64,000 bases of DNA from Bryobacteraceae bacterium. Its GTDB lineage: Bacteria; Acidobacteriota; Terriglobia; Bryobacterales; Bryobacteraceae. Under the pieces are notes generated by a model. The model made no database searches. It saw only the letters and a list, made by a program, of their open reading frames with translations, and was not told the DNA's origin. A program made the translations under genes and the position numbers. How positions within the stretch are numbered: the stretch's first letter is position 1; every line of letters starts with the position of its first letter. This document shows positions 7,875-62,370 of the stretch, piece by piece. The stretch is taken from contig JAIEMJ010000031.1 in assembly GCA_019752335.1 (NCBI GenBank), positions 124,001 through 188,000 on the forward strand, read 5' to 3'.

Positions 7875-7920
7875 AACGCTATTGTAATTCGCTAGCAAGC
7901 CCCAATTTCGGGAGTCGATG

Positions 7921-7929: not shown

Positions 7930-7941
7930 AAAGAAGTCTGT

Positions 7942-8018
7942 GCGCCCGTAGCTCAGCTGGATAGAGCGTCTGGCTACGAACCAGAAGGCCGGGTGTTCGA
8001 ATCACTCCGGGCGCACCA
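7942..8018 (+). tRNA. tRNA-Arg (anticodon ACG)
   Basis: The cloverleaf is complete. The acceptor stem GCGCCCG/CGGGCGC is perfect, the D arm is GCTC/GAGC, and the anticodon stem TCTGG/CCAGA encloses CTACGAA with anticodon ACG. The T arm GGGTG-TTCGAAT-CACTC has one G-T pair. The discriminator is A and the CCA end is encoded. The ACG anticodon would be edited to ICG to read CGN codons. The following 184 bases up to the kinase gene show nothing else recognisable. Confidence 0.95.
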
Positions 8019-8202
8019 CAACATCCCAAGTACTCCTGCTCTTCCGACCCTAACTGGGCGATGTGCGTCAATTTTTAGATACGCGGGGGCGATCCGCAAG
8101 CCCCTCTCGACGCCGGATCTTCTATTTACTCACGGACCTTTTTTGTCTCACGGTTACGCGTGAAGCCTTTCTCGTCGGTTAAACTCAGCAGAAGCCCCAC
8201 TC

Positions 8203-46054: not shown

Positions 46055-46258
46055 ATGGACTACATCGAACAACTCTTTGGCATCTCCCCGGACGGGGGCA
46101 ACGGCCTTTTCGAATTGATGCTGTTTATGGTGCCGGTGGTGGCGCTGGCGGCGTGGCTTCTGCGGCGGCGAGGTCGGCTTGCGCCCACGCCTGCCACTCA
46201 GCCGACGGATCGGACTGGCTCCCGATCCGGTGGCGGAATAGACCACGACCGTAGGTAG
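46055..46258 (+). CDS. Small single-span membrane protein
   Basis: 67 aa: MDYIEQLFGISPDGGNGLFE then a hydrophobic helix (LMLFMVPVVALAAWLL), an RRR stop-transfer signal and a polar tail. The Pro-Asp-Gly-Gly-Asn-Gly segment before the helix looks like a real conserved motif rather than random sequence. It overlaps the 3' end of the convergent propeller gene by about 130 bases, so one of the two tails is constrained by the other. Function unknown. Confidence 0.55.
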   Translation: MDYIEQLFGISPDGGNGLFELMLFMVPVVALAAWLLRRRGRLAPTPATQPTDRTGSRSGGGIDHDRR

Positions 46259-48380
46259 CGGCGGTGAGCGTGCGGGACTCGGCGTGGACCACGAGATCCA
46301 TGACGAAGGCCTGCGGGAGATCGCCTGAGATGTCAGTCCACGTATAGCTCTCGCCCGTCCATGCGCCCCGGTAAACACCGAAGTCCGTGGCGACGTAAGG
46401 CGTGTCTTCGTGAAAGACGACGCAGTTGTGCGGCGCATCGGGAAGCCCTTCGCCGGTCGCGCGCCAAGTGTGGCCAGCGTCGAGTGAAAGGTAAACGTGC
46501 GCTTGGCCGGGGTCCGGCGAGGGCCCAACGGCTACCAGTACGTGCGCGCTGCTCTCCGGATGGGCCGCGATGCGCGTGATGTAGCGATAGGGCAGGTCAA
46601 TGCCGGCCAGATTCTCGCCCCAGGTATTCCCGCCGTCATCACTGCGGAAGAAGCCTCCGCGCTCGGTGCCGGCGTAAACGACACGATCCTGCGCGCTGAA
46701 ATGAATCGCCGACACCGGGGAACTATCCAGCACCGGCGAAACCGCGCGCCACGTCTCGCCATCATCGTTGGACTTCCACAGGCGCGTTGTGCCGAGCAGC
46801 AATGGCCGCGGATTCTTGCGCCCCGGCGAGCCGTCCATGGCCACGATGGGCATCCACAGATCTTCCTTGTCCTTGGCTTCCAGGCCGGCGGGTGTGATGC
46901 GCTTCCATCCCTCTTCGCGCGTGTGCCGGTACACCTCGCCGCCGGGCGATGTCGAAACGAGGTGCTCAGGGTCCTCGGGATCCATCAGCATCCAGCCGCC
47001 CTCGTCGTGGCGCTGGTGGTCGAAGTGCTGGGGAGGATCTTCCTGCCGGTGGAGTACGACGCCCTCATGATGCACGCTGCCCGCGACGATGCCGCCTTCG
47101 GCGCCCGCGACGTCCACCTTGAAGAACATCGACGTGGCGAGGCCGGCATGCCGCTGCGTCCAGGTGTCGCCGTGGTCGTCACTCACGCCGCAGCCGCCTT
47201 CGTTGGCGTCGTAGACGCGCCCGTTTGCGGCCAGCACCAGCGCGTGGTGGCCGCCAGGGGCAAAGTGGGGGTCGGCTTCGGGGGCGTCGAATTCGGTGAT
47301 CTGCTGCCAGGTGCGGCCGCCGTCGCGGGTGCGGTGCAAGTCGCGTCCACCGCAGATGACGAACTCCGGGTTATCCGGGGCCACGGCGATGCAGTTGTCG
47401 TAGTTCGCACTCGTCTCGTTGGCGAAGTGGGTGCCGCCGTTGCTCTGCCAGGTGTCGCCATCGTCGTCGCTGCGGAAGACGCCGAGCACGCCTTCGCGCG
47501 TGTGACCGGCGTAGGCCCACAGCACGGTTACCGCGGGCTGGGCGCCGTCCGCCGGCCGGTGCCCGATGGCCAGGCTGGTGCGGCCGAACTTCTCGCCAGA
47601 AGGCAGCCCGGTCTCGAGATGGGTCCAGGTCTGGCCGCCGTCGAGCGACCGGTAAATGCCGCTACGCCAGCCCCGCAGATGGACGGCCGCATAGACGACA
47701 TCCGTGCGCGCCGGGTGGCAGACGATGGAGTGGCAGCGATAGGGCCCTGCGACGTCGCTGGGGTCGGCGGCGCCCTCAAAAGCGAAACCGTCCACCAGGT
47801 CCCAAATGACGATGCCGTTGTCGCCGGCGCGGCCAATATGCAAGCCGGAGAGGTCTTCGTCGACGATGGTGGCGGAGCCGGCGAAGATCCGGCCAGGCAC
47901 CAGGGGATCGAGCGCGAGCGCCCCGATGCGGTTGGGCAGGGTTTGCGGGCCGTCTACCTCGTCGACGACGGAAGCCCAGGTGGGGCCGCCCGAGGAACGG
48001 AAGATACCGCAGCCGGGGTAGCTATCCAGGTTGAGATTCGCTTCGCCGGTGGCCAGGTAAAGCGAGCCGTCAGAGTGAAGGGCTAAAGCCCCTACGCTCA
48101 ACGACGCCAGTTCGTCGGACCATGGCTGCCAGGTGAGGCCAGCGTCCTCGGTCCGCCAGACGCCGCCGCCGGCCGTCCCCAGAAACACCGTATCTGGATG
48201 CTGCGCGGACACCGCCAGTGCCGTCGCGCGTCCACCGACGTTGTTGGGGCCAAGCGAAGTCCAGTTGTAGACCGCCGTGACGGCGGAGCGCCGCGTGATG
48301 CGCTGGAGGGTAGCTTCCTGGGAGTCGCTCGGCCTCGCCCAACGATTGAGAAACCAGGCGGCGCGTTCGTCGCGGCTCAT
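46125..48380 (-). CDS. Asp-box beta-propeller protein, cytoplasmic (copy 2)
   Basis: 751 aa from ATG at 48380, overlapping the stop of copy 1 (ATGA). The N-terminus SRDERAAWFLNRWARPSD has no signal peptide. At least eight Asp-boxes of the SxDxGxTW type are seen (for example SLDGGQTW, SDDDGDTW, TRDGGRTW, SNDDGETW, SLDAGHTW), typical of a large sortilin- or sialidase-like propeller. No sialidase FRIP motif is evident. The protein ends in an Ala/Pro-rich tail that overlaps the convergent small gene. Paralogue of the next gene, and part of the kinase-glycosyltransferase-repeat operon. Confidence 0.85.
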   Translation of the reverse strand: MSRDERAAWFLNRWARPSDSQEATLQRITRRSAVTAVYNWTSLGPNNVGGRATALAVSAQHPDTVFLGTAGGGVWRTEDAGLTWQPWSDELASLSVGALALHSDGSLYLATGEANLNLDSYPGCGIFRSSGGPTWASVVDEVDGPQTLPNRIGALALDPLVPGRIFAGSATIVDEDLSGLHIGRAGDNGIVIWDLVDGFAFEGAADPSDVAGPYRCHSIVCHPARTDVVYAAVHLRGWRSGIYRSLDGGQTWTHLETGLPSGEKFGRTSLAIGHRPADGAQPAVTVLWAYAGHTREGVLGVFRSDDDGDTWQSNGGTHFANETSANYDNCIAVAPDNPEFVICGGRDLHRTRDGGRTWQQITEFDAPEADPHFAPGGHHALVLAANGRVYDANEGGCGVSDDHGDTWTQRHAGLATSMFFKVDVAGAEGGIVAGSVHHEGVVLHRQEDPPQHFDHQRHDEGGWMLMDPEDPEHLVSTSPGGEVYRHTREEGWKRITPAGLEAKDKEDLWMPIVAMDGSPGRKNPRPLLLGTTRLWKSNDDGETWRAVSPVLDSSPVSAIHFSAQDRVVYAGTERGGFFRSDDGGNTWGENLAGIDLPYRYITRIAAHPESSAHVLVAVGPSPDPGQAHVYLSLDAGHTWRATGEGLPDAPHNCVVFHEDTPYVATDFGVYRGAWTGESYTWTDISGDLPQAFVMDLVVHAESRTLTAATYGRGLFRHRIGSQSDPSAEWQAWAQADLAAAEATPPAPPPAP

Positions 48381-50572
48381 TTCGCGTTCCTCACGTCCAG
48401 CCGGTAGATGCCGCGGCCGTAGGTGGCGGCGAAGAGCGCCTGGGCGCCGCGGTGGTAGACGAGGTCCGTGACGATGACGTTGGGCAGGGTGCCGCTCACA
48501 TTCTCCCAAGCGTACTTCGCGCCGTCCCAGCGTCCCGCAAAAACGCCGATATCGGTGCCGACGAAGGCCCGAAAGGGCGCCACGGTCTCGAAAGCGAGCG
48601 ACGTATGCGGCACGTTGGGCAAGCGCAGGTCCGGATTGGCGTTGCGCCAAGTAAGCCCGGCGTCGAGTGAGAGAAAGACATGCCCATAGGCTCGGCGCTC
48701 GGCGCCCTTCTGCGCTGGGGGCGTCGCTGCGATGGTGAGCAGGACGTGCCGATGGTTCTGCGGGTGGCTCTCCATGCGCGTGATTAACCGGTAAGGCAGG
48801 TCGACGCCGGCCAGATTCTCTGACCAGTAGTTACCGCCGTCTACGCTGCGAAAAACGCCGCCTCGTTGCGTGCCCGCGTAGACAAAGCGCGGATTCGCGT
48901 CGGCGATTTCGATCGCGGTCACCGTCGAGCCATCGAGCACCGGCGACGCCGGCTTCCAGGAGACACCATTGTCGATGGTCTTCCAGATCCGCGTGGTGCC
49001 CAGCAGCACGGGGCGCGGTTGGGCGCGGCCGGCGCTGGTATCCATGGCCAGATAGGACATCCACACTTCGCCGGTCTCCTCTTCATCCAGGCCGTCCGGC
49101 GTCGCGTCGCGGAAGCGGCCGTTGTTCGCCACCGCGATGTTGATGTGCTGCGAGGAGCCCCACAGGTGGCTGGCGTCGTCCGGGTTAAACACGGTCCAGC
49201 CGCCGTCGCCGCTCAGCACGCGGGAGAACAGCCCCTTCGGGGTGTTCAGGTTGTGTACCAGCGTGCCGTTGTCCTGCGCACCGCCGCTGATCACCTCGGC
49301 ATGCGTGGGCGCGACGTCCAGGTCGTAGAACATCGTGGTCACCAGACCGGCTTCGCGCGTCTGCCACGAAGCGCCGAAGTTTTCGCTGAAGGCCAGCCCA
49401 CTATCGTTGGCATCGTAGACCCAGCCGTCGGGCGTGATGGCGAGCGCGTGGTGGTCGGCGTGCGCGTAGTGTGGATCGTGCGGGGGCAGGTTGAACTCGG
49501 TGATCTGCTCCCAGGTCTGGCCGCCGTCGGTGGAGCGATGCAGATCCTGCCCGCCGCAGATCACCTGGTCCGGGTGTTGCGGATGCACGGCGATGCAGTT
49601 GTTGTAATGCGTGGAGCGCTGCTGGGCGAAGTAGTCCTCACCGGTGGCGTGCCAGGTGTCGCCGCCGTTGCGGCTGAAGAAGACGCCCAGCATCCCTTCG
49701 CGCCGGTGCCCGGCGTAGGCCCACAGCACGTCGGGGTCAGAAGGGGCGCGGGCCAGGCTGACGCGGCCGAAGGCTTCGCTAGGGGGCAGCCCTTTGGTGA
49801 GTTGTTGCCACTCGCCATCGCAGCAGCGCCACAGGCCGCTGCGCCAGCCACGCAGATTCACGCTGACGATGGCTTCGCTACGTTCGGGGTGAAAGAGCAC
49901 GGAATGGCAGCGATACGGCACGGACGCGCGGACGGGAACCTGGCTCTGCGGATCGCCGCCGAAGACGAAGCCGGAGATGGCTTTCCATTCCCAGCTTCCG
50001 TCAGCGAGTTCGTGGCCCTCATAGAGTCCGGCGGGCTCGCTGCGGACGGTGGACGCTGAGCCCAGCAGGATGTGGCCGCGCGGGGATACGTGGTCAATCG
50101 CGATGGCGCCGATCCGGCTGGGCAGCGGGTCACCGGTATCCGCTCTTTGCGTGCCGCCGATCAAAGCCCAGCCGCCCCCCGCGGACTGATAGAGGCCAGT
50201 GCCCGGATAGCTATCGAGCGTCAGGTTGGCTTCGCCGGTGCCCACGAATAGGCTATGCGGCGCGCGCGGATCGAGCGCCAGGGCTCCGATGTTCTGCACG
50301 AGGTCGTCGTCCCAGACGGACTCCCAGGTTTTGCCGGAATCGCTGGAGACCCAAACGCCACCCGCGGCACTGCCCAGCCAGACGCGGCGCGGCTCGCGAG
50401 GGTCCACCACCAGCGACGTCGCGCGGCCGCCGACGTTGAAGGGTCCGAGCGACTCCCAACGGATGGCTGGATTGCCCGCCGCGCGCGCCCCAACCAGCGC
50501 GCTGACATCGGCTTCATGGCCCGGCTGCGCCGAGCGGTCAGAGAACCATTGGGAGCGTCCAGCCTTGCTCAT
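48377..50572 (-). CDS. Asp-box beta-propeller protein, cytoplasmic (copy 1)
   Basis: 731 aa. The start MSKAGRSQWFSDRSAQPG shares a (S/A)xWFxxR motif with copy 2 and is not a signal peptide. Seven Asp-box-like turns (SSDSGKTW, SRNGGDTW, STDGGQTW, SENFGASW, TIDNGVSW, SLDAGLTW and a variant). Shared blocks with copy 2 include GEANL(T/N)LDSYPG, PYRCHS, NLRGWRSG/HLRGWRSG, DLPYR and ATYGRG. Likely binding scaffolds rather than hydrolases. It begins 9 bases after the repeat-protein stop, so co-translation is very likely. Confidence 0.85.
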   Translation of the reverse strand: MSKAGRSQWFSDRSAQPGHEADVSALVGARAAGNPAIRWESLGPFNVGGRATSLVVDPREPRRVWLGSAAGGVWVSSDSGKTWESVWDDDLVQNIGALALDPRAPHSLFVGTGEANLTLDSYPGTGLYQSAGGGWALIGGTQRADTGDPLPSRIGAIAIDHVSPRGHILLGSASTVRSEPAGLYEGHELADGSWEWKAISGFVFGGDPQSQVPVRASVPYRCHSVLFHPERSEAIVSVNLRGWRSGLWRCCDGEWQQLTKGLPPSEAFGRVSLARAPSDPDVLWAYAGHRREGMLGVFFSRNGGDTWHATGEDYFAQQRSTHYNNCIAVHPQHPDQVICGGQDLHRSTDGGQTWEQITEFNLPPHDPHYAHADHHALAITPDGWVYDANDSGLAFSENFGASWQTREAGLVTTMFYDLDVAPTHAEVISGGAQDNGTLVHNLNTPKGLFSRVLSGDGGWTVFNPDDASHLWGSSQHINIAVANNGRFRDATPDGLDEEETGEVWMSYLAMDTSAGRAQPRPVLLGTTRIWKTIDNGVSWKPASPVLDGSTVTAIEIADANPRFVYAGTQRGGVFRSVDGGNYWSENLAGVDLPYRLITRMESHPQNHRHVLLTIAATPPAQKGAERRAYGHVFLSLDAGLTWRNANPDLRLPNVPHTSLAFETVAPFRAFVGTDIGVFAGRWDGAKYAWENVSGTLPNVIVTDLVYHRGAQALFAATYGRGIYRLDVRNAK

Positions 50573-50581
50573 GGGGCGGGA

Positions 50582-50890
50582 CTAGCTGTTCGATTTCTTA
50601 CCGCTTACCGGCGCAGGGTCGGGCTTACGAGAGGTGTTGTCGGTGCTGCCGTTGGGAGTAAGTCCGCCGGCGCCGATGGGCGCGGGGTCGGGCTTGCGAG
50701 AGGTGTTGTCGGTGCTGCCGTTAGGAATCAGTCCGCCAGCGCCGATGGGCGCGGGGTCGGGCTTGCGAGAGGTGTTATCGGTGCTGCCGTTAGGAATCAG
50801 TCCGCCTACCCGGACGGGCTCAGTGGTTGCCGCTACCTCAGCCGTCTGGGCCACCAGACCCGGAATCTCAATCGTAATCGTGATCTTCAT
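50582..50890 (-). CDS. Tandem-repeat Ser/Thr/Pro protein (candidate glycopeptide or RiPP-like precursor)
   Basis: 102 aa. Residues 1-28 (MKITITIEIPGLVAQTAEVA with ATTEPVRV) are a beta-rich leader-like part. Three repeats of 23 residues follow at 29-51, 52-74 and 75-97, each reading GGL(I/T)PNGSTDNTSRKPD then PAP, and a short tail KKSNS. Each repeat has four Ser/Thr, the tripeptides NGS and NTS, several Pro and one Arg-Lys pair. No hydrophobic segment, no Cys. It sits between a polypeptide-GalNAc-transferase-like gene and two propeller genes in one operon, which makes it the likely substrate of that enzyme. No known family recognised. Confidence 0.75.
   Translation of the reverse strand: MKITITIEIPGLVAQTAEVAATTEPVRVGGLIPNGSTDNTSRKPDPAPIGAGGLIPNGSTDNTSRKPDPAPIGAGGLTPNGSTDNTSRKPDPAPVSGKKSNS
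50600..50806 (-). repeat. Three tandem 69-bp coding repeats
   Basis: Units at 50738-50806, 50669-50737 and 50600-50668. The first two differ by very few bases, one of them a silent change in the Asp-Asn codon region; the third differs at several positions. The unit is an exact multiple of three, so copy-number change would keep the frame. The near identity implies recent duplication. Confidence 0.95.
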
Positions 50891-50929
50891 AACTGTACCT
50901 TCCTACGCTGCTTTTGTGGCGCCTTGGGC

Positions 50930-51817
50930 CTACCACTCTAACCCAAAAGACCGAAAAAACCAATCATCCGTTTCCCGGCGTGCCGCCTGGACGAGTTGGC
51001 GGCGGGCAGCCACGTCAGAATCCACCACCATCAGCAGCGCCTCGCCAAACTCCCGGTACTGCCGCAGCGTGCCCACCACGATGTCCAACCGCGCGGGTGA
51101 GAAGTGTACCAGCGCCAGACGCAGCCGGTTGTGCAAGGAGATTCGTGGGGGCAGGGGATAGGGCACGCCCTCGCGAAAGTGATGTCCAGCAATCGTCTCC
51201 GGCGTCACCCATTGCTGATAGCCCAGCGTCCAAAGCCGTAAGCACATCTCATTGTCGACGTTGCCCGCGGCCAGCATACCTTCGTCGAAGCCTCCAACCG
51301 CGTCGAAGATCCCGCGGCGGATGGCCATGCACGCACCGGGTAGCACGGGGACCAACACCGGACCCTGGGGCGCCTCTTTCAGCCAACTGGCCTCCAGATG
51401 GGGCTTGGGCAAACTCAGCCCATAGCCCACGTGCTGGCGGGCCGGCATCTCCGCCATCGCCGGCGACGCCGCGCCGGCTCTAGGGCGTTCGAGCAACTCG
51501 CACACCGGCTGCCACCAACCTGCGTCGAAAGACATGTGCGCGTCGCAAAACACGAGCACCTCGCCCGTCGAGGCGCGCGCACCCTGATTGCGAGCCCGGG
51601 CCACGCCGGTTGCCGAATCATTGCGCAGGAGCCGCACCTCCTGGCCTTGCGACAGGAAATCGGTAGAGCCATCACTCGAAGCATCGTCCACGACCACGAT
51701 CTCGGCGGTCTCCGGCAGCGTCGCCCGCAAATTCTCGACGGTATCGCGGAGCAGCGCGCCTTCGTTGCGAGAGATCACTACCGCCGAGATCGCTACCGTA
51801 CGGTCTCGCGCTGCCAT
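50930..51817 (-). CDS. GT2 glycosyltransferase resembling polypeptide GalNAc-transferases
   Basis: 295 aa from ATG at 51817, overlapping the kinase gene's end by 25 bases. GT-A fold: VVISRNEGALLRDTVENLRA, EIVVVDDASSDGSTDFL near 40-54, GVARARNQGARASTGEVLVF, then CDAH with the D-x-H pair at 92 and 94. GGFDEGMLAAGNVDNEMCLR follows at 175-194, and AGHHFREGVPYPLP at 210-223. In human GalNAc-T2 the metal is held by the Asp and His of DxH plus the His of GHVFR; all three have counterparts here. The lectin domain of the animal enzymes is absent. Cytoplasmic. Predicted to glycosylate Ser/Thr of the neighbouring repeat protein; this is inference. Confidence 0.82.
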   Translation of the reverse strand: MAARDRTVAISAVVISRNEGALLRDTVENLRATLPETAEIVVVDDASSDGSTDFLSQGQEVRLLRNDSATGVARARNQGARASTGEVLVFCDAHMSFDAGWWQPVCELLERPRAGAASPAMAEMPARQHVGYGLSLPKPHLEASWLKEAPQGPVLVPVLPGACMAIRRGIFDAVGGFDEGMLAAGNVDNEMCLRLWTLGYQQWVTPETIAGHHFREGVPYPLPPRISLHNRLRLALVHFSPARLDIVVGTLRQYREFGEALLMVVDSDVAARRQLVQAARRETDDWFFRSFGLEW

Positions 51818-54639
51818 ATGTTTCCTGTGAGTTCGCCCAGCGTGAGCACGGCGATGCCTTGGCCCACCGAGAGGCCGATGGATTTGTCCTGGTCTCCCAA
51901 AAACTTGAGGGATCGGCCGCCGGCGTGCAGGTGCTGCACGGCGATTGCCGCCCCGAGGGGCACCTTGGTGCTCGGGTGCAGCGGCTGCGCATAGAGGCAA
52001 CGGAAGCCGTCGCGGTCGGACAGGAAATAGAGCGCGTTGCCGCCGGGTGACCAAGCCGGAGCCCGTGCTTTCTTGTCCTCCGGCGTGATGGCAATCCATT
52101 GCTCGGCTGGCGCCGGTTCCGCGCCAGCCGGGGCGACGAAGATCGTTACCTGGCCCGTGGCGCGCGTGATTTCATGAAACGCGATCCACTTTCCATCGGG
52201 TGACCAGCGCGCACCTAGCAACAACTGCCGGGCCCGGACCGCCGGCGTGGTTTTTCCGGTGGCCGTGTCGAAGCGTAGAATGTCGTCCGGAGGCTTGATG
52301 GGCTCGAGTAAAATCTCCTGGCCATCGCGGCCGGCGTCAAAAGGCGTTCCGCAATTGGTCTGGCACAGCGTGCGGGTCACGCCGCCTTGCACCGGCATCT
52401 GCACCATGGCCAGCGAAGGGTCAAGATAGGTAAGGGACTGGCCGTTCTGTGACAGGGTCGGGTAGCGAGCCGAACTCACGCCGCTCAGCAGCGTCTTCAC
52501 TTTGCCCGTACCCAGATTCATTACGCGCAACGACGAAACGCCGGCCGCGCGGCTCCGGTAGGCCAACACCATGCCATCTACCGATAGCGTGGGATAGGTC
52601 TCCGAGGACTCTTCCTTGGTGAGATTTCGCAGCGGTCCCGAGACCTGGGTACGCTCCGTGTCGAGTGGCAAGCCCCAGATGTCGTAGTTGAGGGTAAGGC
52701 TCGAGTAAACGAGCCGCGTCGCATGCTCCGCGATAGAGACTTGTCCTTCAAACGTGGTGCCATTGGTGATACGGCGCGGCCGGCCGCTGAGCTTGAGTTG
52801 GTCGTCGAACTCTAACTCGAAGAGATTGGTGGAGTCGCCCGAAGATGCCGCGAAGACTGCACGGCTCGGCTTGTCGAGCCAGGCCAAAGGCGTATCGGAG
52901 GTCTGGATGGCGGGTACGCTCAGCTTGGCCGCGGTGAGCGAAGCCACGGCTCCGGTGCGTGCCGGCGGCCGCCCGTCCAAGGGGAAAACATACCAGTCGA
53001 GGCTGTTGGCCGCGGGGGAAGAGTCATTAGCCCTGGCGAGGCACAGCAAGGCATCGCCGCTGGGCGACCACACCGGGTGCAGCGATGCGGCGAACCCCGG
53101 GGCCACGGCGCGGGACTCGCCACCGCCGGCCGGCATCACGCGTACTTGCGCCGAGCCCGGCAGGTAGCCCGACGCTTCGCGACCGCTCCAATAGGCAATC
53201 GACTTGCCGTCGGGCGAGAACTTCGGATCGTGGCCGCCCGCGGCGAGCAAGGTCGGTTCGCCGCCCAACGCGTTCACCACGTAGACTCCGCCACCGTCCA
53301 TTTCGGAGCGAAAGACGATGCGCGTACCGTCGGGCGAGAAGTCCGGCGCACTTTCGTCCATGGAACTTTGGGTGAGTTGAATCGGTGAACCACCGGCACC
53401 AATTTGCTGCAGCCAGAGGTCCAGGCTGCCCGTGGCGCCCCGGTCCGAAGCGTAGACGACGAACTTGCCATCGCGTGAAATCGCGGGATCGAAGGAGAGG
53501 CCCGGGTCACTGGTGAGGCGTGTATTGACGACGTCGTTCTCGCGCACTTCGGGCTTCGCGGGCTTGCGCCACAGCAGGAATCCCAGCGCCACGCAAGTGA
53601 TAGCGCTGCCGGCCAGAAACAGCGGATGCCGCCAGATCGGCTTCGGTAGCGCTGGTGGGAGAGTGCGTTCGCCCGAGAGAGCCGTCAACACCTCGGACGC
53701 GCTCGCCGGGCGCCGGGCGGGATCACGGTCAATACAGCGCAGGATCAGCCGTTCCCAGTCGGGCGGCACGTCAGGGAGGGGGAACCTGCTACCGGCGTTG
53801 ATCCGCTGCCCGGTCACCATCTCATGCATCATCAGGCCCAGGGCGTAGATATCGGAAGCGGCGGATGCCGGCTCGCCTTGGAACTGCTCGGGCGCCATGT
53901 AGTCCGGGGTGCCGAGTACATGGCCCGCTACGGTGACGTTGGTGGAGTCGGCGGAGTGCTCCATGGCCCGGGCGAGGCCAAAGTCGCTGATGACAGCGCG
54001 CGGACCACTGGAGCTTTGCGCAATCATCACGTTGCCCGGCTTCAGATCGCGGTGGATGATGCCGCGCTCGTGCAAGGCGGCCAAGCCCGCCGCCATCTGC
54101 CGCATCAGCCGTCCGGCGAGTTCAACCGGTAAGCGTCCTTCGCGTCGCAGGTAGCTGCCCAGGGTCTCGCCGTCGAGGAATTCCATCGTGAGGAAGGTGT
54201 GTCCCGCGTCGTGGCCGACATCGAAGATACGGCAGATATTGGCATGCGTGACTTGCCGCGCCAGTTGCACTTCACGCCGGAAGCGGCCGAGAAACTGCTT
54301 GTCGTCATTCAGGCTCGGCCGTAGCGTCTTGAGCGCAATGCTGCCCCCAAGTTCGAGGTCGTCGGCTTCGTAGACTTCGCCCATGCCCCCGGCGCCGACG
54401 AAGCGGCGAATGCGGAAGCGCGGTGTCACCAGGTCACCGGGCGAGAAGGTATGGCGGGGTCCGGGCAGGATGCCCAGGCTGGCGGTGGGTCCGGCTTGGG
54501 CCAATAGCCGCTCCACTGACGCTTGCAACTCCAGGTCGCCGCCGCAGGCATGGATGACGTAGGCGCGCTGTTCGCTGGCGGGCAGTTCGGCGGCGGCGGA
54601 AAAGATCTCCTTCACGAGATCCCAACGGCTTAGCGACAT
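51793..54639 (-). CDS. Membrane Ser/Thr protein kinase with PD40 propeller, first gene of the glycosyltransferase operon
   Basis: 948 aa. A helical N-terminal domain (1-65) common in acidobacterial kinases precedes the kinase domain: GAGGMGEVYEAD near 82, Lys104, HRDLKPGN from 196, DFG 219-221, APE 249-251. A membrane helix lies near 337-355 (LAGSAITCVALGFLLW). The rest is a PD40 propeller with repeated FSPDG motifs. All catalytic residues are present. Its stop lies inside the start of the glycosyltransferase gene, so a sensing kinase and the modification genes are expressed together. It differs from the kinase at 8203 in its N-terminal extension. Confidence 0.9.
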   Translation of the reverse strand: MSLSRWDLVKEIFSAAAELPASEQRAYVIHACGGDLELQASVERLLAQAGPTASLGILPGPRHTFSPGDLVTPRFRIRRFVGAGGMGEVYEADDLELGGSIALKTLRPSLNDDKQFLGRFRREVQLARQVTHANICRIFDVGHDAGHTFLTMEFLDGETLGSYLRREGRLPVELAGRLMRQMAAGLAALHERGIIHRDLKPGNVMIAQSSSGPRAVISDFGLARAMEHSADSTNVTVAGHVLGTPDYMAPEQFQGEPASAASDIYALGLMMHEMVTGQRINAGSRFPLPDVPPDWERLILRCIDRDPARRPASASEVLTALSGERTLPPALPKPIWRHPLFLAGSAITCVALGFLLWRKPAKPEVRENDVVNTRLTSDPGLSFDPAISRDGKFVVYASDRGATGSLDLWLQQIGAGGSPIQLTQSSMDESAPDFSPDGTRIVFRSEMDGGGVYVVNALGGEPTLLAAGGHDPKFSPDGKSIAYWSGREASGYLPGSAQVRVMPAGGGESRAVAPGFAASLHPVWSPSGDALLCLARANDSSPAANSLDWYVFPLDGRPPARTGAVASLTAAKLSVPAIQTSDTPLAWLDKPSRAVFAASSGDSTNLFELEFDDQLKLSGRPRRITNGTTFEGQVSIAEHATRLVYSSLTLNYDIWGLPLDTERTQVSGPLRNLTKEESSETYPTLSVDGMVLAYRSRAAGVSSLRVMNLGTGKVKTLLSGVSSARYPTLSQNGQSLTYLDPSLAMVQMPVQGGVTRTLCQTNCGTPFDAGRDGQEILLEPIKPPDDILRFDTATGKTTPAVRARQLLLGARWSPDGKWIAFHEITRATGQVTIFVAPAGAEPAPAEQWIAITPEDKKARAPAWSPGGNALYFLSDRDGFRCLYAQPLHPSTKVPLGAAIAVQHLHAGGRSLKFLGDQDKSIGLSVGQGIAVLTLGELTGNIWQRETVR

Positions 54640-54694: not shown

Positions 54695-55261
54695 TTATAC
54701 GTGGAAAGTGACGTCTTCGTAGACTTCAGCGAGTGGAATTGTGACGCCCGCGAACTGTACAGAGGCGTCGAGCCCGGTTACGATGTCCAGCGTCCACGAC
54801 GTTTCGGACTGCTTGCGAAATATGTCGACGCGGGCCTCGCTCTGCGAAACGAGCAGGTACTCCGAGAATTCCGGCAGCCTTCGGTAAAGTTCAAATTTTC
54901 CACCGTAGTCGTAATCCTGCGTCGAAGGTGACAGCACTTCTACGATAGATCTTGCGTCGTTGAGCGTATCCACCTGCTCATCTGTAAACGTAGGTTGGTT
55001 ACAGACCACCACGATGTCCGGGTAAACGAATTTCGAGGCCGAGACGCGAACCCGCAAGGGGGAGATGGCTGCCCGGCAGCCAGTGCCGCGCAGACGGGTC
55101 CTGAGCGCGGTGGTAATGCCTGCGGCAATGCAGGAATGCGCGAAGCTCACTGCTGCCAGGGGGAAGAGTGCGCCGTCGTGGTATTCGCTCTTGAGTTCGG
55201 CTTCCCGGTCGAACGCGAGGTACTCGTCGACACTGAGCTTGAGATGAGGTGCGGCGCCCAT
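54695..55261 (-). CDS. Uma2 family endonuclease
   Basis: 188 aa, intact. LSVDEYLAFDREAELKSEYH DGALF at the start, FAHSCIAAGITTALRTRLRG, RVRVSASKFVYPDIVVVCNQ, then SIVEVLSPSTQDYDYGGKFE with the predicted PD...E active site. The Glu-Tyr-His-Asp-Gly motif and overall layout match the copy at 12857. Two neighbours face it: the kinase start upstream across 55 bases without recognisable signals, and the M2 peptidase whose stop is 10 bases from its start. Function of the family is unsettled. Confidence 0.9.
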   Translation of the reverse strand: MGAAPHLKLSVDEYLAFDREAELKSEYHDGALFPLAAVSFAHSCIAAGITTALRTRLRGTGCRAAISPLRVRVSASKFVYPDIVVVCNQPTFTDEQVDTLNDARSIVEVLSPSTQDYDYGGKFELYRRLPEFSEYLLVSQSEARVDIFRKQSETSWTLDIVTGLDASVQFAGVTIPLAEVYEDVTFHV

Positions 55262-55270
55262 ATTGCTATT

Positions 55271-57067
55271 CTACCAACCGCTCGGCTGACCCGCGTTCTG
55301 TTCGTCCAGCCACTTCTTCAGCGGCGCGAAGTACTCCACCACCGCGGAGGCGTCGATTTCGCTCTTGCCCGTCAGCAGCTTCAACGTCTCCGGCCACGGA
55401 CGGCTCGCCCCCTGCGCCAGCATCGCCGCGAAGGCTTGCCCAGCTTCCTTGTTCTGATACACCGAGCAGCGATACAGCGGCTGCTTGCAGCCTGCCTTCT
55501 CCGCCAGCGCCCGATGAAATTGGAACTGCAGTAAGTGGGCCAGGAAGTACCGTGTATAGGGCACCGACGCCGGGACGTGATACTTGGCCCCCGCGTCGAA
55601 GTCACTCTCGGAGCGGGCCACCGGCTCCGCCACGCCCTGGTACTTTCGGCGCAACTCCCACCAGGCGGCGTTCATCTGTTCGGGCTTTACTTCCCCGGAG
55701 AAGACCTTCCAGCGCCACTGGTCAATCATCAAACCGAAAGGCAGAAACGCCACCTTCTCCAGGGCCCGCTTCATCAGCACGCCCACATCGGCGGACTCGG
55801 GCGGCGTCTTCGTCAACAGGCCGATCTTCACCAGATAATCCGGCGTCATCGAGAGCTGCACCGTATCGCCGATCGCTTCGTGGAAACCATCGTTGGCCGA
55901 ATCGCGGAAGAGAAATGGCTGCTGGTTGTAGGCGCGCTGATAGTAGCTATGGCCGAGTTCGTGATGGATGGTGAAAAGGTCCTCGCCCGTGGGCTCGATG
56001 CACATCTTGATGCGCAGGTCATCGACATTGTCCACGTCCCAGGCTGAGGCATGGCACACTACCTCGCGGTCGCGCGGCTTAGTCAACATGCTGCGTTCCC
56101 AGAAGGTCTTCGGCAGCGGCGAGAAGCCCAGCGAGAGGTACATCCGCTCGCCCATGCGCGTCATCTCTTCGGCGGTGGCTTTACGGCCGGCGAGGATCTT
56201 CGAGAGGTCATAGCCGGGGTCGGCATTCGGCGGCGCGAGCAGCGGATAGAGGTTGTCCCAGCTTTGCGCCCACATGTTTCCGAGTAAGTGCGCGGGAATC
56301 GGGCCGCTAGCGGGAACCACTTTGTCGCCGTACTTCGCGCGCAGCTTGTTCCGCACATAGGCATGCAAGGAGACGTAGAGCGGCTTCACTTGCTCCCACA
56401 GACGGTCCACCTCCTTGGCGAAGGCGTCGGGCTCCATGTCGTACTTCGACCGCCACATGGCGCCCGAATCCTTGAAGCCCAACTCGCGCGCGCCCTGGTT
56501 CGCCAACGCGACGTACTTCACGTAGTCCGCGCGAATGGGTTGCGCGGTGTCGTGCCAGCCCTTCCAGGTTTCGAGGAGCTTCGCCGGATCGTGGCTCTCG
56601 GCGATCACTTTACTCACCTGCCCGATGTCCTGGCAGGTGCTGGGCATGGGGCAATACTTGGCGCGGCCGTAATGCGCCTCCATGCCGGACGTGAGCTTGG
56701 TGAGTTCGGCGGAGAGCTTCGGGTCACTCGGCGCGGCGACGACCAAGCCGTTCTTGAGGAGCTTCAACTTGCGCGCGACGTCGGCCGGTACGTTCACGCC
56801 GTCGTAGGTGGCGGCGAGCTTCGCGTACTTCACGCCGGCTTGAATGGCTTTTTCGGTGAGGGCGGCGGAGATCGCTTCCGTGTCCTGGGTTATGTAAGTC
56901 GCCGCGATCCACTGCGCCTGGCTCGCCTGATTGGCGAGCGCGAGCAGTTCCGTCTCCGCTTCGGCGACCATCTTCGCCGCCGCGGCGGGCCGGTCCGCCG
57001 ATAAGCTATCGCCGCAGGAAGTGGTCCATCCCAGGCAGAATACGACCAGAGCAAGGTTTCGTTTCAC
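55271..57067 (-). CDS. Peptidase family M2 (angiotensin-converting-enzyme-like) lipoprotein
   Basis: 598 aa from GTG at 57067. KRNLALVVFCLGWTTSC gives a signal peptide with a plausible lipobox Cys; upstream codons of the frame are not protein-like. The zinc motif HHELGHSYYQRAYNQQPF near residue 365 has HExxH, and GFHEAIGDTVQLSM 24 residues later supplies the third ligand Glu. The rest is helical as in M2, near the size of one ACE domain. Predicted dipeptidyl carboxypeptidase at the envelope. Its start is 31 bases from the divergent DAHP synthase start. Confidence 0.9.
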   Translation of the reverse strand: MKRNLALVVFCLGWTTSCGDSLSADRPAAAAKMVAEAETELLALANQASQAQWIAATYITQDTEAISAALTEKAIQAGVKYAKLAATYDGVNVPADVARKLKLLKNGLVVAAPSDPKLSAELTKLTSGMEAHYGRAKYCPMPSTCQDIGQVSKVIAESHDPAKLLETWKGWHDTAQPIRADYVKYVALANQGARELGFKDSGAMWRSKYDMEPDAFAKEVDRLWEQVKPLYVSLHAYVRNKLRAKYGDKVVPASGPIPAHLLGNMWAQSWDNLYPLLAPPNADPGYDLSKILAGRKATAEEMTRMGERMYLSLGFSPLPKTFWERSMLTKPRDREVVCHASAWDVDNVDDLRIKMCIEPTGEDLFTIHHELGHSYYQRAYNQQPFLFRDSANDGFHEAIGDTVQLSMTPDYLVKIGLLTKTPPESADVGVLMKRALEKVAFLPFGLMIDQWRWKVFSGEVKPEQMNAAWWELRRKYQGVAEPVARSESDFDAGAKYHVPASVPYTRYFLAHLLQFQFHRALAEKAGCKQPLYRCSVYQNKEAGQAFAAMLAQGASRPWPETLKLLTGKSEIDASAVVEYFAPLKKWLDEQNAGQPSGW

Positions 57068-57098
57068 GCTTTCGATTCTATCCTGCGACAATGGAAGG

Positions 57099-58436
57099 TT
57101 GCTGAACGATTGGACTCCTGACTCCTGGCGCACTCGCGTTGCGCTGCAACAGCCTCGCTACGAGGACCCGGCCGCGTTGGCCCGGGCCGTCGCTGAGCTA
57201 AGCGCCTTGCCCCCGCTCGTCACCACTTGGGAGGTGGAGGAACTGCGCCGCCAACTGGCCGAAGCCGCCCAAGGCAAGCGCTTCCTGCTGCAAGGCGGCG
57301 ACTGCGCCGAGAGCCTCTCCGAATGCCGCGCCGAGCCAGTCACCAATAAGCTGAAGGTGCTCCTGCAGATGAGCCTGGTGCTGGTCCACGGTGGCCAGCG
57401 CCCCGTGATCCGCGTCGGCCGTTTTGCCGGTCAATACGCCAAGCCGCGCTCCGAAGACACCGAAACGCGCGAGGGCGTCACCCTGCCGTCCTATCGCGGC
57501 GACATCGTCAACCGGCCTGCTTTTACCGCGGCGGACCGCCGTCCGGATCCGGACCTGCTCCTGCGCGGCTACGAGCGCGCCGCCCTCACCCTGAACCTGA
57601 TCCGCGCTCTCTCCAGTGGCGGCTTCGCTGATCTCCACCATCCCGAAAACTGGGACCTTGCCTTTGTGGAAAGCTCACCCCTGGCCGCCGAGTACCGGCG
57701 CATCGTGGGTTCGATTGGGGAGAGCCTGCGCTTCATGGAAAACGTCCTCGGCGTGCGCACGGGGGGAATGGAGAAGGTGGATTTCTTCTCGAGCCACGAA
57801 GGCCTGCACCTTGAATACGAACGCGCGCAGACTCACCTTCAAAACGGCCACTGGTACCACCTGGCGACCCACTTCCCGTGGATCGGCCTGCGGACCGCGC
57901 AACTCGACGGCGCGCATGTCGAGTACTTCCGCGGCCTGCGCAATCCGATCGGCGTGAAGATCGGCGCCAGCACCACGGCCGAAGGTTTGCGCCGTCTGCT
58001 GGACCTTCTCAATCCCACGCATTTGCCCGGAAGGATCACGCTGATCCATCGCTTCGGCGCGGGACAGATCGCGGCGCATTTGCCGGGCCTGATCGCCGCC
58101 GTGCGCGACACCTCGCACCTGCCGCTGTGGGTGTGCGATCCGATGCACGGCAACACCGTCACCACGGCGGCAGGCTACAAGACTCGCCGCTTTCAGGCCA
58201 TTCTGGAAGAGTTGGAACAAGCTTTCGACCTTCATGCCCAGACCGGTGGCCGCCTGGGCGGCGTGCATATCGAACTCACCGGCGACGACGTCACCGAATG
58301 CACGGGAGGCGCCCGTGGCTTGGCCGAAGTGGACTTGAAGCGCGCCTATCGCACCGAGGTGGATCCGCGGCTGAATGGCGAACAAGCGCTCGAAATGGCG
58401 CTGTTGATCGCGCGCAAAATGCGCTCGCTGGGATGA
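57099..58436 (+). CDS. Class II 3-deoxy-7-phosphoheptulonate (DAHP) synthase
   Basis: 445 aa. First step of aromatic amino-acid synthesis: phosphoenolpyruvate plus erythrose 4-phosphate. Plant/mycobacterial-type motifs: KRFLLQGGDCAESLSEC (metal Cys), VIRVGRFAGQYAKPRSEDTE, FSSHEGLHLEYE, DPMHGNTVTTAAGYKTR. The start is uncertain: there is no in-frame ATG before the conserved DWTPDSW, so a TTG at 57099 or CTG at 57102 is used. GGAAGG directly precedes. An out-of-frame ATG at 57091 opens a 4-codon reading frame across this start. Confidence 0.93.
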   Translation: MLNDWTPDSWRTRVALQQPRYEDPAALARAVAELSALPPLVTTWEVEELRRQLAEAAQGKRFLLQGGDCAESLSECRAEPVTNKLKVLLQMSLVLVHGGQRPVIRVGRFAGQYAKPRSEDTETREGVTLPSYRGDIVNRPAFTAADRRPDPDLLLRGYERAALTLNLIRALSSGGFADLHHPENWDLAFVESSPLAAEYRRIVGSIGESLRFMENVLGVRTGGMEKVDFFSSHEGLHLEYERAQTHLQNGHWYHLATHFPWIGLRTAQLDGAHVEYFRGLRNPIGVKIGASTTAEGLRRLLDLLNPTHLPGRITLIHRFGAGQIAAHLPGLIAAVRDTSHLPLWVCDPMHGNTVTTAAGYKTRRFQAILEELEQAFDLHAQTGGRLGGVHIELTGDDVTECTGGARGLAEVDLKRAYRTEVDPRLNGEQALEMALLIARKMRSLG

Positions 58437-58480
58437 AACCGCCACGCGCCGCATCTCGTATGTAAGTGCAGGAGACTTCG

Positions 58481-58993
58481 ATGAAACTCTTATTGGCCGT
58501 TACCCTATCCGCCCTGGCCCTGCTGGCGCAGCCTTCTGAAAAGGCCCGCCAGAACATGATCAAAGAGGTCCGGCATGAACTGGTGATGATGCCCTACTAC
58601 GGCGTCTTCGACAACCTCTCCTTCCGCGTGGACGGCTACACCGTCACCTTGCTGGGCCAAGTGACGCGCCCCACACTCAAGAGCGAGGCCGAGAATCGCG
58701 CGAAGAGCGTGGAAGGCGTGGAGAAGGTGGTCAACCAGATTGAGGTGTTACCGCTTTCGCCCAACGATGACCGGATCCGGATCGCCGTGGCCCGCGCGAT
58801 CTTCAATCACCCCGTGCTCCAGCAGTACTCCTTGCGCGCCGTACCGCCAATTCACATTATTGTGAAGAACGGCAACGTGACGCTCGAAGGTGTCGTCGCC
58901 CGCGAGATGGATAAAAACGTGGCGAATATTCAAGCCAACGGCGTGTCTGGAGTCTTTTCGGTGAAGAATAACTTGGTCGCCGAAAGTAAGTAA
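58481..58993 (+). CDS. Periplasmic BON-domain protein
   Basis: 170 aa from ATG at 58481, with GCAGGAGAC upstream. Signal peptide MKLLLAVTLSALALLAQ. Two BON domains: about 25-90 (FDNLSFRVDGYTVTLLGQVT, VEGVEKVVNQIEVL) and 95-165 (RIAVARAIFNHPVLQQ, HIIVKNGNVTLEGVV). BON domains bind phospholipid or polysaccharide and support envelope stability. It follows the DAHP synthase gene by 44 bases and converges on the third receptor gene. Confidence 0.9.
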   Translation: MKLLLAVTLSALALLAQPSEKARQNMIKEVRHELVMMPYYGVFDNLSFRVDGYTVTLLGQVTRPTLKSEAENRAKSVEGVEKVVNQIEVLPLSPNDDRIRIAVARAIFNHPVLQQYSLRAVPPIHIIVKNGNVTLEGVVAREMDKNVANIQANGVSGVFSVKNNLVAESK

Positions 58994-59001
58994 TTTGGAG
59001 G

Positions 59002-61563
59002 CTAGAAATCGAGGCGCAACGTGAAGCGGAACGTCCGTCCATCGTTGAGGGTATTGGTGATCTGTCCGAACGCCGGCGAGGACAGGTCCGCGTTGGGCTC
59101 GGCGAACTGAGGAGTATTCATCACGTTGACGCCTTCCGCGCGGAAAGACAGCGCCCGGTCACCGTGCAGGATAAACCGGCGCTCCAGACTCGCGTTCAGG
59201 TTGTGGATGCCCCCGCGGCGGAAGGTGTTCGTGCCCAGGTTGCCTCTCGGTTCCAGTGGCTGCATCAACTCGAAGGCGGAGCGGGGAAGTAGCCTGGGGG
59301 CGGTGTCCGGGTCGCCGAAGGTGCGGCCGAGAATGCTCGTGTCGCGGAGATGTGGCCTGTCACCGTTGACGCCGTCGGCGTTGCCGTAGCCCGGGGCGTC
59401 GGAGCCGCTAAAGACGGTGAAGGGCAAACCGCTTTTCGAAAGAAACACCGCGGACAGACGCCAATCCTTGGTAACGTGCCGTGCTTGCCGCATCTGCGGA
59501 AGCGAGTAAACCATGCGGACCAATAAAGCGTGGGTCTGATGAAAATTGCTCACGCCGCGTAAGTCCGCCGCGACCCCCGTAGCGGTCTGCGAATAACCCT
59601 GCAGCGCATCGTCACCGGCGGCGATGTTCACGTAGGTGGCGCCGGTGTCGATGGCCTTGCTGAACCAATAGGCCGTATCCAGCGTGAGCCGCCGCCAGTT
59701 GGGCAGCGTATAGTTGACGCGCGCGGCGTCAAAGTAAGCTCGCGCTCCGTTGGTGATTTGCCGGAAGTCGTAATACCGGGGATCTGGGCGACGGTCATTG
59801 ATGGTGGCCGTGGTTTGCGGAATGCCGGGCACGATGACGGCGCGATTGTTGTAATTCATCAGCAGTAGCTTCCAGGTGCGCGTGCCGACGTAACCCAACT
59901 GCAGCTTCCCGGCTTTCGCGCCCACGGGGATTTCCCACATGGCGTTGTATTGGTGGGAATAAGGAGTGACTAAGTCCGGCGGCACGTCAAAGGTAATTGC
60001 CCGCTGATTGCCGCCCAGGCTGACGCCGCGCAGTAAGTCGAGCAAGGGCGGGTTGAGGACTTCCACCTTCTGAAAAGCCGGTTGGTTCCAGCGGACCTGC
60101 TGCAAGGTCGCCGGGAACACCTCGCCGAATTGCGTGCTGTAGGCAGCCCGCAGGACGCCCCAGCGCCCGCCCAGCCGACGCGCGAGGCCGACGGTCGGCG
60201 CCAGATTGTTGCAGTCGCACCGGAAGGGAATCAGCGACAGCCGATTCACCTCCTGAATGCCCATCACCGGCTCATACCGCACGCCCAACGACACGGTGAG
60301 CTTGTCGTTCACCCGCCAATTGTCTTGCACGAAAGCATGCGTTTCCCAACGGCGAAAACCGCGCATCAACTCGCCCGCGCCGAAGGAGTATCGCGTCACG
60401 GCGCCGAGCCGGAAGTTGGTGATGGCGTCGCGGCCAAAGTCATTACGAAAGTAAATATTGCCCCGGTTCGAACTCGCTTCGCGGCCATTCAGTTGCAACC
60501 GGGCGAATTCTCCGCCAAGGGAAAGCTGATGCCGGCCCTGCTGACGGGTGTACCTGGCCGCGGTGCGATAGCGATTCTGCACGCGGTCCACCGGAATGGA
60601 CGACCCCGGACCTAGCTTTTCCCAAGCCGTGCCGATCACCACCTGCGGCCCCACCGCGTTCGCTTCGGGCACCAGCAAGGACCGGGAGCGGTTGAAACCC
60701 GTCGTGACGTCCAGCACGCTGCCAGCGCCCAGGTTGCGGCTCCAGGTGAGCCGCGCGTCGTGTGACTTCGTTGTCGTATCCGGATTCTGCCCCGCCACGA
60801 GCTGGAAGGCGTCCACCGCCTGCGTTGTCCACACATGCCGCGCGGTGAAACGATCCTTCCCGCGCCAATGGTCCAGTTGCGACGTTGTGTTGTCGGTGTC
60901 GATCCGTTGCGCGGCATTGGTGTTGAGTTGGCGCTCGCCGAGATTCGGCGGTTGGCTGGGCCAGGCGCGCAGCCAGCGATTGATTAGCGCGCAGGCGGCG
61001 GGATCCGGGCTCAGGCAACTGCGCTCATCGGCGCGCGGCACCAGAATGTTGCCGTTGACGAAGCCGCGCTGCATCTGTCGCGATCCGTCGAAGGAGAAAT
61101 GCGTCTTCGCGGTAAGCGGCGCTAAGAGCCGGATCCCGAACTGGTTGTCCCGCGCGGGACGCACGCCTCCCACCTGAAAGAAGCTGCGCGCGGAAAAGAT
61201 GCTGTTGTTGTGCGACCACGTGGCGCTACCCCGGACTCCGGAACTGGGGCGCGTGCCGCCTAGATGCACGCTGCCTGCGGGCGCGTTGCCGTATTCGGCG
61301 CCGTAGAAGCGCGCCTCGGACTTGAACTCCGTTATCAGCGTCGCGGTGGTGCCCAGCCGCTTGATGTTCTCCTTCAGCGCGTTGTTATCCAGCAGCGTGA
61401 TGGCGACATTTTCGTTGCGGCGGCTCTCACCGCTCTCGGTGTTCGTTTTGCCAAGCAGGTTAAGGTCTGCCCGCTTCTCGGGCGCGGGCGCAAGCTTCTC
61501 CTCGGGAGTCTGCACCGGCGGACCCTGCGGAAGCAAAAGCAAAGCGACCAGAATCGAAGTCAA
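59002..61563 (-). CDS. TonB-receptor-like outer-membrane barrel without the regulatory-like domain
   Basis: 853 aa. A short signal-like start MTSILVALLLLPQGPP and a Pro/Lys-rich segment lead to a partial plug (NVAITLLDNNALKENIKRLG, FKSEARFYGAEYGNAPAGSV). A barrel with the aromatic-alternating strands of the Oar-like family follows and ends FRFTLRLDF. The carboxypeptidase-regulatory-like domain of the other two receptors is missing, and the plug is shorter, so it may be a reduced relative. The 18 bases between it and the gene upstream suggest co-transcription. Confidence 0.82.
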   Translation of the reverse strand: MTSILVALLLLPQGPPVQTPEEKLAPAPEKRADLNLLGKTNTESGESRRNENVAITLLDNNALKENIKRLGTTATLITEFKSEARFYGAEYGNAPAGSVHLGGTRPSSGVRGSATWSHNNSIFSARSFFQVGGVRPARDNQFGIRLLAPLTAKTHFSFDGSRQMQRGFVNGNILVPRADERSCLSPDPAACALINRWLRAWPSQPPNLGERQLNTNAAQRIDTDNTTSQLDHWRGKDRFTARHVWTTQAVDAFQLVAGQNPDTTTKSHDARLTWSRNLGAGSVLDVTTGFNRSRSLLVPEANAVGPQVVIGTAWEKLGPGSSIPVDRVQNRYRTAARYTRQQGRHQLSLGGEFARLQLNGREASSNRGNIYFRNDFGRDAITNFRLGAVTRYSFGAGELMRGFRRWETHAFVQDNWRVNDKLTVSLGVRYEPVMGIQEVNRLSLIPFRCDCNNLAPTVGLARRLGGRWGVLRAAYSTQFGEVFPATLQQVRWNQPAFQKVEVLNPPLLDLLRGVSLGGNQRAITFDVPPDLVTPYSHQYNAMWEIPVGAKAGKLQLGYVGTRTWKLLLMNYNNRAVIVPGIPQTTATINDRRPDPRYYDFRQITNGARAYFDAARVNYTLPNWRRLTLDTAYWFSKAIDTGATYVNIAAGDDALQGYSQTATGVAADLRGVSNFHQTHALLVRMVYSLPQMRQARHVTKDWRLSAVFLSKSGLPFTVFSGSDAPGYGNADGVNGDRPHLRDTSILGRTFGDPDTAPRLLPRSAFELMQPLEPRGNLGTNTFRRGGIHNLNASLERRFILHGDRALSFRAEGVNVMNTPQFAEPNADLSSPAFGQITNTLNDGRTFRFTLRLDF

Positions 61564-61581
61564 TTCACAGGATATCGAAAC

Positions 61582-62217: not shown

Positions 62218-62370
62218 CACACACCTCCCCAAGTTTCTTTCGGGCAGACGAGGCCATCGACCTACTTAGTCCTATCGGCGAGTCGCCGAAAATTCATAAG
62301 ATCTGTTGATTGTACGACGCATTTCGCGTCTTGCAAGTTCCCCATTCCGGGGAGCCGTACTAGTACTGCA

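Follow-up and report, generated by a model that had tools for sequence, protein, structure and literature searches.

A lectin-less GalNAc-transferase-like glycosyltransferase and its low-complexity Pro/Thr/Ser neighbours: a candidate protein-O-glycosylation module in Bryobacteraceae

Introduction

Does a bacterial glycosyltransferase (GT) that resembles the eukaryotic polypeptide N-acetylgalactosamine transferases (GalNAc-Ts) glycosylate the low-complexity protein encoded beside it? The question is raised by five consecutive genes in a 64,000-nucleotide stretch of DNA (hereafter the window) from a Bryobacteraceae bacterium (Acidobacteriota; assembly GCA_019752335.1, contig JAIEMJ010000031.1, positions 124,001 to 188,000), among which the GT gene is followed by that of a tandem-repeat peptide of 102 amino acids (aa). 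The locus is read here, with a probability of roughly 0.6, as a small protein-O-glycosylation module in which the GT would modify Thr/Ser of a disordered, Pro-containing partner encoded by a neighbouring gene, the repeat peptide being the putative partner in the window. Cytoplasmic protein O-glycosylation is known in bacteria, and mucin-type O-glycosylation is, to our knowledge, regarded as eukaryotic. No description of GalNAc-T-like peptide glycosylation in bacteria was recognised in the portions of the open-access literature consulted.

Results

Gene order in the window

The five genes lie on the minus strand, with the following features:

51793..54639, minus strand: Ser/Thr protein kinase with a PD40 beta-propeller C-terminus, 948 aa (open reading frame (ORF), Pfam)
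50930..51817, minus strand: lectin-less GalNAc-T-like GT-A glycosyltransferase of DxH type (the GT), 295 aa, ATG at 51817 (ORF, PDB sequence searches, AlphaFold2)
50582..50890, minus strand: Ser/Thr/Asn/Pro repeat peptide, 102 aa, proposed GT acceptor (ORF, repeat, slot in other genomes)
50610..50806, minus strand: 69-bp tandem repeat array (2.9 copies) within the peptide gene (Tandem Repeats Finder)
48377..50572, minus strand: propeller 1, 731 aa, Sortilin-Vps10/BNR, predicted GH74-like double propeller (Pfam, model, Foldseek)
46125..48380, minus strand: propeller 2, 751 aa, paralogue of propeller 1 with 48% identity (Pfam, sequence match)

An earlier sequence-only reading had given these five genes with their coordinates and spacing, and ORFs and translations confirmed them: the kinase and GT genes overlap by 25 bases, gaps of 39 and then 9 bases follow, and the two propeller genes overlap in an ATGA. 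Pfam assigned Pkinase and PD40 to the kinase, Glycos_transf_2 to the GT and Sortilin-Vps10/BNR to both propellers.

Fold and active site of the glycosyltransferase

When the GT sequence alone was searched against solved structures, polypeptide GalNAc-Ts ranked first (best 1.9e-21), and they were again the best PDB matches of a profile built from 20 GT sequences, the window's included (E 2e-35). Two other GT2 enzymes of these genomes matched heparosan or chondroitin synthases first, the second of them listing a GalNAc-T last, at 1.7e-4; thus, the resemblance is not general to GT2 enzymes. The AlphaFold2 model of the GT (predicted local distance difference test score (pLDDT) 93.6) gave GalNAc-Ts in all of the best 50 Foldseek rows. 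In VIA-align it superposed on the catalytic domain of human GalNAc-T2 with a Z of 33.6 and a root-mean-square deviation (rmsd) of 2.1 Å over 282 of 295 residues, ranks 1-29 were all polypeptide GalNAc-Ts (Z 33.6 to 28.4), and the best match of another kind reached Z 24.0 over 184 residues. Model residues 5-295 align to GalNAc-T2 133-439, the sequence stopping where the catalytic domain stops; correspondingly, no C-terminal ricin-type lectin domain was found in the GT, either by Pfam scan or in the model.

The residues expected to bind metal are kept, as are two of the three acceptor-pocket residues. D92, H94 and H212 align with D224, H226 and H359 of GalNAc-T2, which are Mn ligands according to excerpts of PMC4432651, and are invariant in 20 of 20 aligned sequences. 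So are W145 and F214, the counterparts of W282 and F361; in the same excerpts, F361, F280 and W282 of GalNAc-T2 recognise Pro-x-Pro, and the W282A and F361A mutations almost abolish activity (PMC4432651). Among nine distant GTs (seven loci), D92, H94 and H212 occur in 9/9, Trp at 145 in seven and Phe at 214 in six. Among 92 other GT2 enzymes, His at 94 was found in one (3 unaligned there), Phe at 214 in one (73 unaligned there) and Trp at 145 in 14 (39 unaligned there). The description of the enzyme as GalNAc-T-like in the sequence-only reading is therefore borne out by the PDB sequence matches, the fold superposition and W145 plus F214; on sequence and model, it is the best-supported part of the locus.

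The GT shares with the eukaryotic GT27 family, as represented by human GalNAc-T2, the catalytic-domain fold, the DxH plus His Mn site, the HxFR motif and W282 plus F361. It differs in being only ~25% identical, in the missing lectin domain, in a membrane anchor not being seen, in having Asp188 for N335, and in keeping neither F280 nor a conserved Glu at E334. Asp188 is invariant in 20/20 sequences, and Asp also stands there in 44 of the 46 other GT2 enzymes having a residue at that position. Inverting GT-A enzymes use this Asp as their catalytic base. Since Asp188 occupies the base position of inverting GT2 enzymes, where GalNAc-T2 has N335, the GT is probably an inverting enzyme, and a beta-linked sugar would therefore be expected. 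With this replacement and no lectin domain, it is probably not a true GT27. Its best NCBIfam match is the mycofactocin enzyme MftF (TIGR03965), at 98.6 bits as against a cut-off of 280; MftF glycosylates a ribosomal-peptide-derived compound (PMC7491314, in excerpt), and no mycofactocin genes were found among the ten window proteins scanned.

The repeat peptide of the window

Tandem Repeats Finder placed the array in the peptide gene at 94% matches and score 345; it reported one other array in the window (score >=50), which is weaker. The unit is 23 aa long. Counted at codon positions 1, 2 and 3 in turn, copies 1 and 2 show 0, 0 and 2 differences between them, and copy 3 departs from each of the two at 2, 2 and 7 sites. 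Such an excess at the third position indicates that the repeat is translated. A Pfam scan of the peptide gave nothing above cut-off (best Scytovirin, E=0.0025, 18.7 bits vs 27), and by eye no signal sequence was visible at the start of the peptide or of either propeller. A search of 61 genomes with the peptide recovered nothing beyond its own sequence and two weak matches, at E 0.0012 and 0.0034. The tandem repeat was accordingly rejected as a conserved feature, the Ser/Thr/Pro repeat of the window being unique among these genomes.

A recurring low-complexity neighbour

Of 257 genomes of the order, 25 gave matches at E<=1e-35 in searches with the GT alignment, in which only the best few candidates per genome were scored; 24 of these 25 belong to a single family. 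Among 396 genomes across the phylum, three matched at E<=1e-40, one of them being that of the window, and in G001, the other same-genus genome of the 61-genome set, a GT match at 1e-15 was absent (L-numbers denote loci and G-numbers genomes of the comparison set). A quick tree grouped the window GT with L104 and the loci that have a Lys-rich peptide, in a set of 12 rows (SH-aLRT 94).

For inspection, 28 GT loci were used. L106 and L187 (where the contig stops inside the GT), L167 (the second G150 fragment) and L026 were left out, while L185 and L188 were kept despite a GT cut at its start, their downstream side being whole. In L026, from 7573, the GT, very like that of L024 by eye, breaks off into unrelated sequence, and the contig, CAMDKT010000201.1, may be chimeric. 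By eye, a low-complexity, Pro/Thr/Ser-bearing neighbour is present at 23 of the 28 loci, 18 in the close set and five in the distant set.

In the close set, a Lys/Ala-rich peptide with a Pro/Thr tail lies directly after the GT at L104, L024, L170, L176 and L188, in the interval between GT and propeller at L172, and beyond the propeller at L171, L173 and L175. L177 has YAPEKP repeats; at L105, L168 and L169, GTNRPRG-type repeats form the propeller N-terminus; and L179-L182 carry HPLPPD peptides of 43-48 aa, which are conserved at the front and vary in their S/T/P tail. In the distant set, L183 has two (TP)n proteins before a GT pair, the second stopping 19 bases short of the GT, and the (PSTPS)n protein of L194 stops 3 bases before its GT. 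At L193, a methyltransferase-GT fusion is preceded by an RDD-domain protein of 930 aa that carries long TPSP repeats, and PTPAP-rich proteins occur ~1 kb upstream of the GT at L189 and, on the opposite strand, ~2 kb away at L186. The peptides behave as coding sequence, with in-frame length change and third-position excess (differences at codon positions 1, 2 and 3 of 3,7,12 for L024/L188 and 14,10,23 for L179/L182). Thus the slot and its composition recur beside the GT, and the repeat sequence itself is not conserved. The sequence-only reading had asked whether the repeat gene, the GT and the Asp-box propeller pair co-occur; a low-complexity neighbour does recur with the GT, the repeat itself does not, and propellers are found at 9/28 loci. 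A GT found widely without repeat-peptide or propeller neighbours would have counted against that reading; the outcome favours it, since 24 of the 28 loci have at least one of the two.

Two side observations concern this slot. At L194, two tandem Ser/Thr/Pro-rich proteins (7040-8050 and 8222-9301, reverse-complement coordinates) with similar Cys-bearing C-termini precede the GT. At L174, three tandem 16-aa micro-ORFs (MK[IV]K[ST]KVKAG[GS]A[AV]WGT; 8855-9097, 96-bp spacing) lie ~0.1 kb before the GT; the last two have an AAAGGAG-type ribosome site. All three look like tiny peptide genes, and they are excluded from the count of 23.

Such short ORFs would also fit a pathway for ribosomally synthesized and post-translationally modified peptides, with the peptides as precursors of secreted, glycocin-like glycopeptides, and both the L174 micro-ORFs and the HPLPPD peptides (four loci) can be cited for it. 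As in glycocin systems with SunS-type GTs, a GT2 enzyme adjoins a small peptide gene. Glycocin acceptors are Cys or Ser in disulfide-bonded peptides. In contrast, the 18 close-set peptides contain 0 Cys, Cys being present in the large partners at L183, L193 and L194; the distant-locus partners are large (319 aa and more); and no peptidase or transporter, nor any glycocin-type ABC transporter, peptidase or disulfide enzyme, was found among the five window genes by Pfam. This explanation is thus considered very improbable.

Statistics of the slot

Because inspection by eye is open to bias, a fixed strict rule was applied: a 30-aa window of entropy <=2.1 bits and >=55% P/T/S/K within 3 kb of the GT. 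Thirteen of the 28 GT loci were positive, or 12 once L178, where the match overlaps the GT in another frame, was removed. In far tiles of the same loci (>4 kb away) the count was 0/32, the tiles being 3 kb, whereas the GT windows are 6 kb plus the GT. A nearly identical rule (matches internal to the GT ORF ignored, composition slightly looser) gave 2/92 at other GT2 loci, where each of the two matches lay on the opposite strand and was probably read in a wrong frame. Of these 92 loci, one (L027, Streptomyces palmae) is itself a DxH enzyme, fifteen have ~1.5 kb flanks, several are short contigs, and many belong to other phyla. Fisher's test gave P=2e-7 for 12/28 versus 2/92 and P=6e-6 for the distant loci alone (5/7), values that are generous because related loci are not independent; the distant set is the fairer test, its partners being unrelated. 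For the first ORF after the gene, entropy was <3.0 bits for 6/26 GT genes and 3/167 other genes, <3.2 for 7/26 and 15/167, <3.4 for 7/26 and 30/167, and <3.6 for 12/26 and 54/167, so that the lowest threshold alone separates well. The three low-entropy controls are themselves partner regions (the post-propeller peptide of L175, the L024 peptide antisense and the L183 TP tract off-frame).

These figures bear on a second explanation: the GT would serve the synthesis of a surface polysaccharide or lipid glycan, and the Lys-/TP-rich and repeat ORFs would be unrelated structural or nucleoid-like proteins in variable islands. Low-complexity tracts are indeed frequent in the order, and in G001 the region matching window 55271-63998 is syntenic, while the cassette side has no blastn match in the 5.2 kb compared. 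However, a Lys-rich peptide lies within ~0.2 kb behind the GT or GT-propeller pair at 9 loci, and tract frequency cannot explain this adjacency, given 12/28 as against 2/92 and 0/32 tiles. The explanation is regarded as fairly improbable.

The kinase

The kinase has a Pkinase domain at 77-281 (E=2.9e-47) and PD40 (E=1.2e-30), and the window genome holds seven matches to it at E<=1e-60, itself included. Among window genes it alone was matched by PADLOC in a defence-system screen. A PD40 kinase lies upstream of the GT at 16 of the 28 loci, on the same strand; at four of these its gene is broken across two frames. Kinases of GT loci are 31-39% identical to the window's, whose next relative in its own genome is at 37%; because identity is no higher than this, the link is to a common family and not clearly to a conserved orthologue. 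That family is large and generic.

That position, together with Thr-Pro and Lys-rich tracts of the kind that suit Ser/Thr kinases, would agree with a third explanation: the low-complexity peptide would be a phospho-substrate or scaffold of the kinase, which would modify it in place of the GT, and the GT itself would have an unrelated glycan as its acceptor. However, at L183, L189, L193 and L194 a Pro/Thr/Ser-rich neighbour occurs without any kinase match ahead of the GT; at L176 and L177 the peptide follows the GT and an upstream kinase is absent (L177 has one downstream, on the other strand); and the peptide adjoins the GT in most close-set loci. The GT also retains residues of a peptide-binding pocket. 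A kinase-centred arrangement is therefore quite unlikely.

The propellers

Present at 9/28 loci, the propellers are accessory, not core. The model of propeller 1 (pLDDT 83.5) matched xyloglucan-active enzymes in its best 23 Foldseek PDB rows (TMq 0.56-0.65, rmsd 6.4-8.7, over both propellers), which we take to be GH74 enzymes where the rows do not carry that label, and a propeller profile matched 2cn3 at E 3.5e-21. In the profile alignment, A69, invariant in 11 sequences, aligns with the Ala of RAAIGGAY in 2cn3, presumably the D70A mutant, with wild-type Asp at this position assumed. The propellers are thus predicted to be GH74-like double 7-bladed propellers and, with Ala at the catalytic-Asp position, are probably catalytically inactive. 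They share the double Asp-box propeller fold with GH74 xyloglucanases and differ in this putative Ala and in having no visible signal peptide. By eye, propeller relatives in other genomes have signal-like N-termini, and a motif like [KR]-x-x-WF-x-x-R stands ahead of the propeller in most of those read.

Other genes at the loci

Upstream of the kinase, a Uma2-family gene and an M2 (angiotensin-converting-enzyme-like) peptidase occupy window 54695-57133. A second, different GT2 enzyme (~240 aa) is encoded on the opposite strand at six GT loci (L105 8918-9661, L024 8283-9002, L104, L168, L169 and L188), and at L104, L105, L168 and L169 it lies between kinase and GT. At L104, the opposite strand just beyond the Lys-rich peptide holds the end of a gene that is convergent with the GT operon; this part of its product contains GTSMAAPMVAGAAALM, which looks subtilase-like by eye, and then MAVWGD repeats. 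Two GT ORFs are 787 aa long: that of L183 (5430-7793) continues past the GT domain and has another, weak GT match, and in that of L193 (3533-5896) Pfam methyltransferase domains precede the GT domain. A sulfatase gene follows the GT-peptide pair at L024 (9014-10381, Pfam), L170 and L188 show similar starts by eye, and the next gene of L184 is sulfotransferase-like by eye; a sulfated glycan is possible at such loci.

Discussion

The idea at the core of the sequence-only reading, that the repeat peptide would be the GT substrate, is strengthened by these sequence comparisons. In the proposed mechanism, the GT would be a stand-alone, probably cytoplasmic, GalNAc-T-like catalytic domain that uses a nucleotide sugar and Mn2+ and glycosylates Thr/Ser in the adjacent disordered chain, Pro being held by W145/F214. 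The partner would diversify fast, by repeat expansion, replacement or fusion to the propeller, because a disordered Pro/Thr/Ser chain would be nearly sufficient. The propellers may bind the glycan or product, or may serve as a further acceptor, since the repeat is fused to the propeller N-terminus at three loci. The kinase probably senses a signal via its PD40 propeller and tunes expression or activity of the module. What the sequences show directly is the gene order, the resemblance in fold and pocket residues, and the co-localisation; the acceptor, the linkage, the cellular location and the parts played by propellers and kinase are inferred from these. Among bacterial systems, streptococcal serine-rich repeat adhesins are O-glycosylated in the cytoplasm by GtfA/GtfB, encoded near their Ser/Thr-rich repeat protein; GtfA/B belong to the GT-B class and are accompanied by an accessory Sec system, whereas the enzyme here has the GT-A GalNAc-T fold and linked secretion genes were not noticed.

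Several observations weigh against such a module. As to the enzyme, the position of the pocket residue F280 is variable in the GT alignment, H212 is undistinctive, being found also in 31/92 other GT2 enzymes (58 unaligned there), and at the Asp188 position six of the nine distant GTs have Asp, two have Glu and one has Phe. As to the acceptor, 'PT' dipeptides in the window peptide are not significantly in excess of within-peptide shuffles (23 v 17.0, P=0.06), nor is Thr near Pro significantly enriched over shuffles (P=0.11). As to the slot, inspection found no low-complexity neighbour at L178, L184, L185 (which has a propeller) and L107; under the strict rule, which was fixed only after the close-set loci had been viewed, the DxH protein of L027 also has none. 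K/A-rich (KKAAKKA) tracts occur in 160/257 genomes and (TP)n tracts in 75/257, and the presence of either was rejected as a marker of the system: with tracts so frequent, presence is uninformative and adjacency alone counts. Finally, no sugar-nucleotide, export or protease genes were noticed as linked, in flanks without systematic annotation.

A wider proposal, considered less likely than not, is that Acidobacteriota have a native mucin-like O-glycosylation, in which lectin-less, inverting GalNAc-T relatives would glycosylate adjacent, fast-evolving low-complexity Pro/Thr/Ser proteins; the animal enzymes could then descend from a bacterial enzyme of this kind. If the module is real, it would offer a tractable bacterial system for the origin of GalNAc-Ts. 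As a tool, the enzyme would be small, would need no lectin domain and could be used in E. coli to glycosylate Pro/Thr/Ser tags. Both that origin and the bacterial sugar-coating of low-complexity proteins would become addressable by a simple in vitro assay.

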